Below are positions 2,839 to 52,061 of a stretch of DNA of 64,000 nucleotides, in pieces. Where the stretch lies: the NCBI GenBank assembly GCA_016931935.1, contig JAFGDW010000271.1, positions 44,806 to 108,805 of the forward strand, in the 5' to 3' direction. Source of the DNA: Candidatus Zhuqueibacterota bacterium. GTDB taxonomy: Bacteria; Zhuqueibacterota; Zhuqueibacteria; Thermofontimicrobiales; Thiofontviventaceae. The translations under genes and the position numbers were made by a program. Numbering within the stretch: position 1 is the stretch's first letter; each line of letters begins with the position of its first letter. Under the pieces are notes generated by a model. The model did no database searches and was not told the origin of the DNA. It saw nothing but the letters and a program-made list of their open reading frames with translations.

Positions 2839-3348
2839 TTCATTCTCCTTAATACATTGGTTTTTAAATTAATTTTTCCAAGAATAATGAAAACGATCTG
2901 GTTTTCATTTATCTGTAGAGATTTTTAAATAAAAACATTTGTAACAAATCAATAGTCGATGGTCCTGTTGGTCTGCCGCGGCACGAACGGTGTCGTAGGG
3001 CACAATGACTATTTTTATTGCACGAATACAACATTTTGTTTAAGCTTAAGAGTGGAAATGAAGTTCGGTTATCAAGGACTGTGTTCCTTTCATTTCACCC
3101 ACCTCCTTTCATGTTTACGTGATGAGTTATGCGATTTGCTTAGAAATAGCTTGTTCCGCAACAAAGGCAAATTTAATCAAATATCTCCAGAAAAATTATG
3201 AATCCATTCAATGTTGGATGGCTATGTTGACTTCGACAAACTCAGCCACGGAAAGTCTCCCGTACCCTGTGCTTACCATCACGCAGCAGCGTGCTGCCTT
3301 TGTTTGTGGCACGAACGGAGTCGTAAGGTACAATCATCATTATTTAGT

Positions 3349-3464
3349 GTCCGTTCGGAAATGGTTGATTTTGTAACGCAATCATCTTGATTGCAAGTTA
3401 AATATTGAGTTATATAAGAAATTACAACAAGCTTGAAGCTTATCGTACTTTCCCGGACAGACAC
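3349..3464. mobile_element. MITE-like non-autonomous element
   Basis: Imperfect terminal inverted repeats GTGTCCGTTCGGAAA / CTTTCCCGGACAGACAC, flanked by identical TATTTA hexamers (3343-3348 and 3465-3470). No coding capacity. Confidence 0.7.
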
Positions 3465-4063
3465 TATTTAGTGAATGGATACGATTTATTCATGTAATAA
3501 TTTTGACAGCAAGCTGAGTTTGCTTCAGTTGAATCACACCAAAAAATCACCCCATAAAAAAGACTCACAAAATAATATGGTGTTGTATAATAGTCAAATT
3601 CAGTAACCCAAAATGAATCTGTTAAAATTCGAGACGCAACATCCGGCATGAAGAAATTAATAGGTTGCACAAACTATTTCAAAAATAAGATTAAAAAAGT
3701 ATTATATAACTTCTAAGTATTTACCACCAAAAATACATCCATGTGATGATCCACATCACATTTGTATAAGTAGTCGATGAGAAAATATCTTCAGTCTATC
3801 TGGTGATATTGTCTCACTAGCGTGGCCCAGCGAGTAAAGGCAATATCCAATCACTGCTAATTTAATTTACCGTATTCGAATAAACTCCAAGCGCAATAAT
3901 AGAGATTTACATATTAATATGATCGTTATTCAATTTCATGTGTGGCAAATAGCTAAAAACCGCTTGATAGTTTTGATAATTAATTGTAATTTATGGACAA
4001 CCTAAACGAATGATTTCCATGAAAAATAAATAAACTCACGCTTTATTGCCCTGGAGATAAATA

Positions 4064-7303: not shown

Positions 7304-7426
7304 CAATGTCATTAGGTTAAGCACATAACCAGGTTTTATCATTCCCCGGTAAAACATCTGGACTGTTAGCCGGTTCCCGATGGCCCGCCGCTGTTTGACG
7401 GGATCGGGATTACGGAATCTCACCAA
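7304..7426 (-). mobile_element. IS remnant (transposon end with possible transposase C-terminal fragment)
   Basis: CAATGTCATTAGGTTAAG at 7304-7321 matches the termini of the elements at 41302 and 50509. Minus-strand ORF ending ...AIGNRLTVQMFYRGMIKPGYVLNLMTLLN runs through the terminus. Confidence 0.45.
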
Positions 7427-40938: not shown

Positions 40939-41301
40939 TAAAATTGAACAACTTAATTAATTCTCGTTGCTAAGTGAGAAAAATTTAATATTTAAAAACA
41001 AGTTAAACCACAGAAATCACAGAAGAACACGGAATAAATAAAGTATGCTTTTTTAGTGTTTATCCGTGTTTTCAGTGATCCAATTTTTCTTTTTTGGGTT
41101 CTGGTTCATTCAGGTTGGGATAATTGTAAAATATTTTATCTTTAATTAACCGAATAGCATGAAATCGAATGTGATGTCTAATGAGAATACGGTTGAGTCA
41201 TCAGCAAGAGGTATATTAAAACGAAGACAAATTTAATTTGTTTTCCATTTTCCGGACTTCGTTCTAATTATCAAATATAGTATCGGCAGCTATGTATGAA
41301 T

Positions 41302-41431
41302 CAATGTCATTAAGTTAAGATGTATTCCATAAATGTGCTAAAATCGAGCCCTGAGCTTGACGAAGGGCGTCGGGGGACGTTGTCTTCGACAGGCTCAGGC
41401 AACGATCGAAAATTCCTTATTTTATGGCATT
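41302..41431. mobile_element. MITE-like element, CAATGTCATTAAGTTAAG family, copy 1
   Basis: Left end CAATGTCATTAAGTTAAG (41302-41319), degenerate right end CTTATTTTATGGCATT, flanked by the direct repeat TATGTATGAAT (41291-41301 and 41432-41442). Confidence 0.7.
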
Positions 41432-41450
41432 TATGTATGAATTATTATAA

Positions 41451-47041: not shown

Positions 47042-50000
47042 CTAAAAATCCAGCCCCAGCGAGAAATAGTAAATCGGCTTGCTCGTCTGGTTGAAGTCAG
47101 TTCGCCAGGCAGCATCAAATTTCAATAGAAAAATATACACATTCGCCCGGATACCATAACCGAAGCCGGTGGCGATGTCCTTAACGTAGCGTTCACCATT
47201 TGATGTTTTTGCTGAAAACCGCCATGCATTGTCATTCGTCCAGGCCGAACCAGCGTCAATAAACGAAACACCGCGAATATTTTGAAAGCCAACCGGAATC
47301 GGGAACCGTGCAATTAAGTATTGGATAAAGGGATATCGAAATTCGATATTTAATAACGCGGCGCGTGTTCCAACAAGCTCATAATAATTGGCGCCACGCA
47401 GCGGTGTCATCCAATTCGATAAAAAATAATCGGGAAGTGTGAATACATTAATATCCCGCTCGAATTTGTAGTTGATCCAGTTTTCGGTTCCCCCCATAAT
47501 GAACAAGGTCGGATTTTTTCCGGCGCTTACGCCACCTGCAAAACGCAAAGCCAGGCTATAGTCTTTGCGAATTGTGTAATAATGGCGGAAGTCAAAGTTC
47601 CCGGTAATAAATTCTTTACCATCGTTGCCTAACTTTGGACTGGCAGAAATTCCGATATGATTACGAGCGCCACTGCCAGGTCCGTAGTACGCCCAAATAG
47701 AGTTATCAGACGTGTAACCGAGCGTCGGCATTATGATGTTATATGAAATCTCTGGGAGAAATGAATACGAAAGCAATTTCTGAGAAATATTGACATATTG
47801 AATATCCATATCGATCCGCCGGAATCTGGAAATCGGATAAGACGCCTGCAGTGAAATTCCCCGATTGGCAAATCGGGCCGATCCAAAATTGGTCGCGTAT
47901 AGATCCACAAACTGATAGCCTGCCACACTCCAGTCCGTCCTGGGTTTCAGGTATTGATATGACAGGTAAAAATCGCTGTTCATTAAACTCTGCATCAGAT
48001 TCGCTCCGATAACAATCTGATGATTTCCCAGCAAATCACTCAATGACATTTGAGTCAGCCCTTGAAAACCGTAAATAGGATCATAGCCGGCATTGGCGCC
48101 GATGTTGTCAATTGAAAATTTTATTCGATAATTGTTGGTTTTAAATTCGCCGCTGGAATCGCGAATTGTGGATTGTTGTAGCCGAACCGGCTGAATTGCC
48201 TGATATTGCGCATCGATAATTCCGCGTCGGAAATCACGTCCGAACACAAATCGTGAAAAATCGGTTGTTTGCTGCACCGTACGTGTAATCAGGTCGCGTT
48301 CTTCACGTGAAAAGGTCGTTGTATTTGTTCGGTCTTCCTGCTTACTAAATGTTTGGGCATAAATCGTAAGTGGCGGGGGAAGTGTATCCTTTGCTACGCC
48401 GAAAGGATCTGCCCATAAGTAGATATTATAGCCGCCATTGGCAAATGCAGTAAAGGCCAATCGTTTGCTTCGAATCCCCCACGATATTTGGGCGCTGCCG
48501 GAAATCAAGTTGGTTAATGTGGTTTCTTTTCCACTTTGAATGTCGCGATAGTAAATATTGGCAACCCCACTCTGATCGGAGACATATAGCAGATATGTTC
48601 CGTCGGGATGCCAGACAGGCGATGTCTGGTTAAATGGAGAATCGGTAATCCGCCGCATCCCCGATCCATCTTTGTGGATAATATAAATATCAGTTGAATG
48701 ATAATCATAATCTTCGATGCGAATATCGCCAATCAGTTCTGTGGGTTCAACATTTTCCTTGCGATCAGAAACGAAAGCAATGTCGTTACCATCCGGCGAC
48801 CAGGCAGGCTCAAGATCAGTGAAAATATCGTTGGTTACATGACGCAGTTGGTCGGTTTGGCGATCATAGATATAGATGTCCGAATGCCCGTCTTTGACAC
48901 CTACAAATGCGATTTCATCTGAAACCGGTGACCACGCCGGCGCAAATAATCCATCCAGTCCGAATTTGTGGATAGCAACAATTTCCTTCTTATCGACATG
49001 CATTATTTGCAGGGCATCTTCGCCAGCGGCGCGCGCTGTAAATGCCAAATAGTTCCCATCCGGTGACCAGCTCATGCCGGGCCGTAACCATTGCAATTCT
49101 TCAAGATCAGCTTTTTTCTGCCCGGATGCCAGCCGCGTGATGTTGGTTTTATCGGTTGCCTGTACCATGTAAATATCAAAATAACCGGTGCGGTCAGTCA
49201 GAAATGCCACGCGATCGCCTTTGGGGGAAACGGCCGGGCTATTGTTGATGAAGTTTCCCCATTTAACATGATCGGTTAACCGTTGGCCGTACTCATTGGG
49301 TTCCTTGCGGAGCGCCACATCGGGCCAGTATTTTTTGCGCATGTAGCTGAGCCATTTGTCACTACTATCTTCCAATGGTTCATTCAGTGCTGCGCGCCAC
49401 GCTTTTTCGAAATTCCGAGTCGATTTAGTGCGTTGCAATAGTTCGGTTATTTTCTGCCTGCCATAGGTTTCTTCAATGTATTTCAGAACCGCTTGCCCGC
49501 CTTTATAAGCCAGAAATGCCTGAAGATAGGGGATTGGTGGCAGGTAACCGTTGCGAGTTGCGTCGCGAACAAACATATCCGAGTCGGTATCCCAGCCGAT
49601 TGATGTATACTCGGCAAGGCCTTCAATAAACCAAAGCGGTGGCGCACCACGCGAGACGCCCTGAATAATAGAACCCGCGCCAGCGCCATATAAAAATTGC
49701 AACATTACCGCATGGGTCAATTCATGATGAATGACATGCCGGAATTGTTCATAGGAACCATCAAACGGTAACACAACGCGGTTTTTGAAAAATTCGGTAA
49801 AACCGCCCACACTTTCACCGACAATTTGTGATGAGATATTTGTCTCTGTGAAGTCGTTGTGGGATCGATAAATTACAATCGGGATACGTTCGATTAATTC
49901 ATAATTAAATAAGTGGCTCAATGTGACATAGGACGATTCCGCTACCGCAGCCCCAAATGTTGCTAATTTCTGTCCGCCTTGATAATAATAAATATCAAAA

Positions 50001-50140
50001 TGCTCGGACTGAATAAATTCCCATTGCTGATGTTCGTATTGAATTTTATTGCGCCCGAATTGCTGGGCAAAAACATGTGGTGAGATAAACGTTTGAATCA
50101 GAAGGTATGCTAAACTGAATACGATTAATTTTTTTATCAT
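47042..50140 (-). CDS. Peptidase MA-like + TolB/PD40 beta-propeller + outer-membrane beta-barrel fusion
   Basis: HHELTHAVMLQFLYGAG...PPLWFIEGLAEYTS; SPDGNYLAFTARAAGED / SPDGNDIAFVSDRKE; C-terminal barrel (surface antigen-like) ending ...YYFSLGLDF. Start at MIKKLIVFSLAY with GGAGAG SD. Confidence 0.85.
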   Translation of the reverse strand: MIKKLIVFSLAYLLIQTFISPHVFAQQFGRNKIQYEHQQWEFIQSEHFDIYYYQGGQKLATFGAAVAESSYVTLSHLFNYELIERIPIVIYRSHNDFTETNISSQIVGESVGGFTEFFKNRVVLPFDGSYEQFRHVIHHELTHAVMLQFLYGAGAGSIIQGVSRGAPPLWFIEGLAEYTSIGWDTDSDMFVRDATRNGYLPPIPYLQAFLAYKGGQAVLKYIEETYGRQKITELLQRTKSTRNFEKAWRAALNEPLEDSSDKWLSYMRKKYWPDVALRKEPNEYGQRLTDHVKWGNFINNSPAVSPKGDRVAFLTDRTGYFDIYMVQATDKTNITRLASGQKKADLEELQWLRPGMSWSPDGNYLAFTARAAGEDALQIMHVDKKEIVAIHKFGLDGLFAPAWSPVSDEIAFVGVKDGHSDIYIYDRQTDQLRHVTNDIFTDLEPAWSPDGNDIAFVSDRKENVEPTELIGDIRIEDYDYHSTDIYIIHKDGSGMRRITDSPFNQTSPVWHPDGTYLLYVSDQSGVANIYYRDIQSGKETTLTNLISGSAQISWGIRSKRLAFTAFANGGYNIYLWADPFGVAKDTLPPPLTIYAQTFSKQEDRTNTTTFSREERDLITRTVQQTTDFSRFVFGRDFRRGIIDAQYQAIQPVRLQQSTIRDSSGEFKTNNYRIKFSIDNIGANAGYDPIYGFQGLTQMSLSDLLGNHQIVIGANLMQSLMNSDFYLSYQYLKPRTDWSVAGYQFVDLYATNFGSARFANRGISLQASYPISRFRRIDMDIQYVNISQKLLSYSFLPEISYNIIMPTLGYTSDNSIWAYYGPGSGARNHIGISASPKLGNDGKEFITGNFDFRHYYTIRKDYSLALRFAGGVSAGKNPTLFIMGGTENWINYKFERDINVFTLPDYFLSNWMTPLRGANYYELVGTRAALLNIEFRYPFIQYLIARFPIPVGFQNIRGVSFIDAGSAWTNDNAWRFSAKTSNGERYVKDIATGFGYGIRANVYIFLLKFDAAWRTDFNQTSKPIYYFSLGLDF

Positions 50141-50273
50141 CTCTCCTCCGCAGCATAAATCCATCATTTTTTAAACCTGCGTGAATGTGTTGCTGATTTT
50201 ACGTGCAAGCAAACATAAATTATAAGAGAGAGAATCAATGTAGCAAAAATTATAGTTACTATTCAACGGAGCA

Positions 50274-50353
50274 TGTCATTCCGGTTTTGATCCACTGTTT
50301 TTGTGGGTTAAATCATGCCATAGGCAGATGCGCCGTGGCGTGCCGGAATGACA
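50274..50353. repeat. Inverted repeat pair TGTCATTCCGG/CCGGAATGACA
   Basis: Perfect 11-bp arms at 50274-50284 and 50343-50353, with imperfect outward extension. Confidence 0.5.
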
Positions 50354-50508
50354 GCACGGCTGAATGGATACGAATTATTTTATTTCAATCAAGGCTTATC
50401 ACGCAGGATATTTGTAATTTCATCTTAATATTTTAAATATTTTAACAACACAAATTTTAAATATGTTTCAAAAATAAATGAAAAGCAGACTAGAATTGTT
50501 TATTACTC

Positions 50509-50683
50509 GATGTCATTAAGTTAAGCTGATATTTCTTGATCTTAGATTCCTAACATGCTTCGACTTCGCTCAGCATGAAGCAGTCGTTGACTTCACGCTG
50601 AACCCTTCGTCAAGCTCAGGATAAACTCCGTCGAAGTGTGAATAGGTCAAATAACTAACTTTTGTCTTAACTTAATGGCATTG
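50509..50683. mobile_element. MITE-like element, CAATGTCATTAAGTTAAG family, copy 2
   Basis: 18-bp TIRs CGATGTCATTAAGTTAAG (50509-50526) / CTTAACTTAATGGCATTG (50666-50683), flanked by the 10-bp direct repeat GTTTATTACT (50499-50508 and 50684-50693). Confidence 0.8.
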
Positions 50684-51071
50684 GTTTATTACTATTCAAT
50701 TATCGACAATCTGTCGACAGGATGAGTCGCTGATTCATCCTTAGCGGAGGTTTTTAGATAGCCTCTTAATCGCTGTTTTTAGTCATTAAAATTTTGAAAG
50801 CGAAAATGTATACTTGTATCGAAGTGGTTTTGAGATTCTTCTCGTTAAGTACCTCCTCTTAGTCTCCTTCTTTGAAAGGATGAGAAATTATGGACAATCT
50901 CAAAACCATTTCGGAAGCAGTATATTTATTCAGCAATCGTAGATCGTCAACGGCGGGACGAAGCCGACACGATTCGGTTCTATTTTTGCGTATGTTGCCT
51001 TCGACAAGCTCAGGCAACGTAAACGTCATGCTGCTTCAATAAAATAACTTGGCTTATGAGTTACATGAAAA

Positions 51072-52061
51072 TTATCCAATGAACATGAAAGCAAGACCAC
51101 TTATACAGAGAAATGAAAACATTAAATGAAGCAACACATTCAACCGGGCGGCGGTTTTCAAATTTTCGGTATTGTTGGTATTGTGCAGAAGAATCGATAT
51201 AATCCTTGGGAGCAAGAATACATACGGGAGTAAACAAACCAACACCGGCCAACCATGTTTTAGATACGATATTGTAAGCAAAACAATATTGGTACACAAC
51301 ACAAGTTGAACGATGATATAGATCCACACGGTGGTGGTGTTGCCACAACGTACGGCCACACCCCATTTCCCGGTTTCTCTGTCGGCGTCCAGATCGATCA
51401 TTTGACCGATGAGTAAAATAGAAAGTGTACTAATCCCTGTAATGGGCATTGCAACCACAACTGCGGGATGAAAACCAACATTTTGGCTAACTGCGGCAAT
51501 CAGAATGGCCATCGGTCCGAATGCGAACCAGACAGATATTTCTCCCCAACCACGATATGCCAGCTTTACCGGAGCTGCCGTGTAATATTTGCTAAAAAAT
51601 GCGGATAACACATACAAAAAAATGATATAAATCCGGATGCCTTCATTTACCCGGAGAAAAAGCACAACACAGGCGATAAATGCAATAATCAGACTATAGC
51701 GGGCGATTTTGAACATTGCTGGCAACAGCTCGGGTTGATCGACGATGACGCCGGATCCACCGCTAAATTCATTGCGATGGATGTTTACTTTGTCTGTACC
51801 CTGCAATGTATCATAGATATCATTATAGACATTGGTCGCAACATGTAAGCAGACGCCCATAATGAACACAACAACAAAATTCAATATCTCAAATCGGCTG
51901 GTAATGGAACAGACAATCAGTGTGCCGATAATCAACGGGCTAATAATGGACGTTAAAAATGGCGCTCGAATAATTTTCAGGAATGATGGCTGGCCTGTAT
52001 TCATGGCTGCCTCCGTTTTGGTTTGCATGTACTGAGACGTTTTAATTTTTGTATCAATCAA
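51072..52061 (-). CDS. UbiA family prenyltransferase
   Basis: 329 aa multi-TM; ATNVYNDIYDTLQGTDKVN (NDxxD), QMIDLDADRETGKWGVAVRCG (second Asp motif). Confidence 0.9.
   Translation of the reverse strand: MIDTKIKTSQYMQTKTEAAMNTGQPSFLKIIRAPFLTSIISPLIIGTLIVCSITSRFEILNFVVVFIMGVCLHVATNVYNDIYDTLQGTDKVNIHRNEFSGGSGVIVDQPELLPAMFKIARYSLIIAFIACVVLFLRVNEGIRIYIIFLYVLSAFFSKYYTAAPVKLAYRGWGEISVWFAFGPMAILIAAVSQNVGFHPAVVVAMPITGISTLSILLIGQMIDLDADRETGKWGVAVRCGNTTTVWIYIIVQLVLCTNIVLLTISYLKHGWPVLVCLLPYVFLLPRIISILLHNTNNTENLKTAARLNVLLHLMFSFLCISGLAFMFIG

Follow-up and report, generated by a model that had tools for sequence, protein, structure and literature searches.

A 176-bp MITE with the ends of IS1675-type IS4-family elements in a Candidatus Zhuqueibacterota genome

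MIC231 combines IS231-type ends with cargo genes. Named as a mobile insertion cassette of the IS231 type in the reference list of PMC2266710, it resembles the element studied here in being non-autonomous DNA between IS4-family ends. For the IS4 subgroup, the published features are ends of the form -AATR--------WTW and repeats of 10-13 bp, and for the IS4Sa subgroup the consensus CA------T and repeats of 8-10 bp (PMC2266710). A MITE in the hupL gene of Candidatus Thiomargarita nelsonii has been described at coordinates 1357-1561; no IS parent was found for it and a PD-(D/E)XK origin was suggested (PMC4853749). Literature searches for the TIR string, the IS4 end and IS1675 returned nothing on the MITEs reported below.

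The whole stretch of DNA that was analysed, 64,000 nt in length, is referred to here as the window. The focal MITE lies in a 0.9-kb non-coding gap (50168-51071) between two minus-strand genes, and the features in and around this gap are as follows.

47042-50167, minus strand: large protein gene with PD40 repeats, on one side of the gap
50498-50507, plus strand: left copy of the target duplication, GTTTATTACT, read directly and backed by the offset control
50508-50683, plus strand: whole MITE, 176 bp, read directly and backed by relatives in the genome
50508-50525, plus strand: left TIR, CGATGTCATTAAGTTAAG (family consensus CAATGYCATTAAGTTAAG)
50554-50642, plus strand: palindrome-rich core with two CTTCG..CTCAG hairpin motifs, also present in another TIR type of the same genome
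50666-50683, minus strand: right TIR, CAATGCCATTAAGTTAAG, which reads CTTAACTTAATGGCATTG on the plus strand
50684-50693, plus strand: right copy of the target duplication, read directly
51072-52061, minus strand: UbiA-type prenyltransferase gene, on the other side of the gap

From 50498 to 50693 the layout is GTTTATTACT, CGATGTCATTAAGTTAAG, an interior of 140 bp, CTTAACTTAATGGCATTG and again GTTTATTACT. The initial annotation had placed a MITE-like element of 175 bp at 50509-50683; its right end is correct, but the true start is one base earlier, at 50508, so that the element measures 176 bp. The 18-bp TIRs and the perfect 10-bp duplication that it described were read directly from the sequence; the two TIRs share 16 of 18 bases, and the copies of the duplication agree in all 10. 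It was also right that the interior is non-coding, since the element falls in the gap between the two genes, and no ORF of 60 aa was found inside it. The interior carries CTTCGAC..GCTCAG motifs, and the observation that such motifs recur elsewhere in the window holds as well, with seven of them (at most one mismatch) across the window.

The assembly of the same genome comprises 7.9 Mb in 381 contigs and is 92% complete. The TIR core, allowing at most one mismatch, matched 66 times in it, versus 4 times for a reversed control pattern, and many full-length relatives of the focal MITE were found, the best with 97% identity. A sample of 29 elements bounded by inverted TIRs was taken from this genome. 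A 10-bp duplication lay immediately outside the TIRs (offset 0, at most two mismatches) in 26 of the 29 and was exact in 12. When the flank was slid by one to six bases either way (offsets -6 to +6), only 0-1 elements showed a duplication at each offset, and when left and right flanks were paired at random the mean was 1.9 duplications with at most two mismatches. The targets of these elements share the A/T-rich, near-palindromic consensus AWTT....AAWT. The genome-wide search for TIR pairs that had been proposed as a check thus gave recurring pairs with 10-bp duplications. That a chance inverted repeat simply stands beside a chance direct repeat is refuted by the many copies and the clean controls, and we regard it as practically impossible. 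The TIRs, the 10-bp duplication, the lack of a gene and the dispersed copies support the MITE reading, and as a kind the focal element is an ordinary MITE.

Several interior types occur under the same ends in this genome, and the elements measure about 130, 150, 175 and 315 bp. The window itself holds two further traces of the family.

41302-41432, plus strand: second family member with a different interior, left TIR intact
7304-7321, plus strand: solitary TIR-like end, CAATGTCATTAGGTTAAG, with no partner seen

The right TIR of the member at 41302-41432 shows decay, with several substitutions and a change of about one base, the element is flanked by a perfect duplication of ATGTATGAAT (41292-41301 and 41433-41442), and its interior type was found at three other loci. 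The solitary end at 7304-7321 is probably a decayed copy. At five loci the interior is longer and includes, embedded in sequence of the MITE type, a further repeat, ACAGGATAACAGGATGAACAGGATT..AATCCTGTGAATCC.

For 15 copies, the two flanks were joined and looked for in the same genome and in 12 relatives. The copy on contig C90 proved to be inserted in another dispersed repeat, of which seven other copies are uninterrupted and have the duplicated bases in single copy. The proposed check for empty sites therefore succeeded in the form of a paralogous single-copy target for this copy, but not for the focal MITE, whose orthologous empty site was not found in the 12 relatives, the only matches being its own two flanks. 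The repeat TAATATGAATGACCAGTTGAAAATAATGGTCGATTGAAATTTAACAAG.., seen at seven loci on seven contigs, is a third dispersed repeat and the target of one MITE copy; it runs into CTTCG..CTCAG-like hairpin motifs.

Public genomes and viral contigs were scanned for exact matches to the end CAATGNCATTAAGTTAAG. Among the matches listed, Clostridium manihotivorum, Aquimarina, Allobaculum and viral contigs have pairs of CAATGNCATTAAGTTAAG at a spacing of 1.47-1.69 kb, flanked by 9-10-bp duplications, and the genes between them, some of which are frameshifted, encode IS4-family transposases (NF033592) that match the IS4_1 model. Autonomous elements with this 18-bp end are 1.5-1.9 kb in size, encode a transposase with the YREK signature and are flanked by 10-12-bp duplications. 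The signature was present in all intact transposases compared, that of E. coli IS4 included. The nearest relative with a name is Lactococcus IS1675, which carries the 18-bp ends CAATGTCATTAAGTTAAG on both sides, equal to the MITE family consensus at 18 of 18 positions, and a 10-bp duplication, GAGTATACTC. IS1675 differs from the focal MITE in being 1604 bp long and in encoding a transposase of 439 aa, whereas the MITE has no gene, and it has only the ends in common with the MITEs of the family. E. coli IS4 is a more distant likeness: it encodes a YREK transposase of the IS4 family and its ends, TAATGCCGATCAGTTAAG and TAATGCCAGTCAGTTAAG, equal those of the family at 14-15 of 18 positions, but its transposase shares no more than about 20% identity with those of IS1675 type. 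The ends and the duplication of the focal family fit the IS4-subgroup consensus of PMC2266710, as they do the short IS4Sa one, so that the family is placed in neither subgroup in particular.

We consider it very probable that the focal element is a non-autonomous MITE that would be moved in trans by an IS1675-type IS4-family DDE transposase. Such an enzyme would excise the element and join it to a 10-bp staggered cut in an A/T-rich, roughly palindromic target (AWTT....AAWT). It would recognise little more than the 18-bp ends, and because it would need little else, any DNA lying between two such ends could travel. The cargo in this genome may be host palindromic repeat DNA, the interiors deriving from captured host repeats, which is the least certain step of the proposal, and the supplying transposase would be lost or absent here. 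The MITE itself had been correctly recognised in the initial annotation; here the family is assigned to IS1675-type IS4 ends.

The ends might instead belong to another transposase family, or to another IS4 subgroup with duplications of about 10 bp (the IS231, ISH8 or IS4Sa types), the match to IS1675 being convergence. The IS4Sa consensus with its 8-10-bp repeats is short and also fits the TIR, so that both subgroup consensuses fit (PMC2266710), and the genome that carries the MITE has yielded no transposase of the family. However, the agreement with the autonomous IS4_1/YREK elements extends over all 18 positions and is not limited to two or three, and the same ends are found on both MITEs and IS4 elements within T. 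nelsonii and within the Clostridia genome G063. We judge this explanation very unlikely and retain the IS1675-type assignment.

A search of the own genome with profile A1 (assembly 92% complete, 381 contigs) detected no YREK transposase with the family ends. Four DDE_Tnp_1 matches (on contigs C245, C226, C360 and C135) were considered as parents and rejected: none is flanked by family ends, and YREK is absent from the three longer of their proteins, which were compared. The idea that contigs ending soon after a TIR hide a collapsed IS was also rejected; the sequence there consists of MITE interiors and host repeats, with no transposase. A TIR match was found in only five of 60 genomes in a search of relatives, and profile A1 found no transposase in three relatives with the TIR (G027, G050 and G008). 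The search for a parental transposase that the initial annotation had proposed thus led to the IS4 family in other genomes, but to no parent in this one. The parental transposase may be missing from the assembly or lost from the genome, and since no matching transposase was found there, the MITEs of this genome are probably stranded and now immobile. Five Y1-type (PF01797) transposase matches, some of them broken, are present in the genome and are possible movers of the hairpin motifs.

MITEs with the same end are found in groups that include Bacteroidota, Bacillota and Gammaproteobacteria, amounting to hundreds of similar elements in unrelated bacteria. Counts of the exact end are 741 for Candidatus Thiomargarita nelsonii, 296 for a Thiotrichaceae genome, 160 for a Clostridia genome and 41 for Flavobacterium soyae; the reversed control has no match in any of these four genomes. 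In T. nelsonii, one element with these ends spans 1368-1550, and adding its 11-bp duplications gives 1357-1561, exactly the coordinates published for the hupL MITE (PMC4853749). The hupL MITE is thus a member of the focal family, and partly from this agreement of coordinates we identify the assembly searched as coming from the organism of that study. It resembles the focal MITE in its ends, CAATGCCATTAAGTTAAG, and in its palindromic interior, but the interior is unrelated in sequence and the duplication is 11 bp, not 10 bp. The T. nelsonii genome also contains decayed IS4 genes with identical exact ends and 11-12-bp duplications. These IS4 elements are the probable parent of the hupL MITE, previously an orphan, and the data argue against the PD-(D/E)XK origin. 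A parent family can thus be given to orphan MITEs, the one interrupting hupL among them, and one short pattern finds such elements in many phyla.

In T. nelsonii and in Clostridia G063, co-resident MITEs and IS4 elements have only the terminal 18-21 bp in common. We compared 35 elements from many genomes; their interiors are rarely alike between genomes, and the folding z-score is below -3 in 24 of the 35, with a median of -4.4. Since the ends are fixed and the interiors are dissimilar but fold well, the end is the constant part, and the interior, which varies, has a palindromic tendency.

Another explanation would make the palindromic core itself the mobile or selected part, as a terminator, an RNA hairpin or a REP-like repeat that a Y1 transposase spreads, and would treat the TIRs as incidental. 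In its favour, two or more TIR types contain the core, the focal element folds well with its TIRs (z = -4.6; the interior alone is weaker, z = -2.2), and the genome holds the Y1-type matches mentioned above. Against this, in the 26 of 29 elements the duplications directly adjoin the TIRs despite varied interiors, the TIRs are fixed while interiors differ between genomes, a search of the focal region in Rfam gave no match, and no promoter-like or terminator-like matches were found inside the element. This explanation is very unlikely; it is weak for the whole element and is still viable for the core alone. Movement through the TIRs by an IS1675-type transposase remains our preferred reading.

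We propose tentatively, and with considerable doubt, a more general scheme: the one 18-bp end, kept constant across phyla by IS1675-type transposases, may act as a general mobilisation tag, with MITEs being built repeatedly in each host by the trapping of local palindromic repeats between two of these tags, and palindromic cores may be swapped between families with different ends. As ends and interiors clearly evolve apart, the origin of MITE interiors has become testable.

At six loci in several other genomes the duplicated target forms a perfect or near palindrome, as in CCCTACAGGG, AGCAATTGCT and GAGTATACTC, which suggests that hairpins or palindromes are preferred as targets. The core at 50554-50642 is shared, in the own genome, with elements whose ends, GTATCCNTTCAA, are quite unlike those of the focal family. 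These form a second MITE-like family, represented at seven loci, whose members are mostly 170-180 bp long and have short duplications, of 7 bp or more; the palindromic core of the focal MITE recurs in several of them, and a possible decayed copy lies at 3200-3482 of the window.
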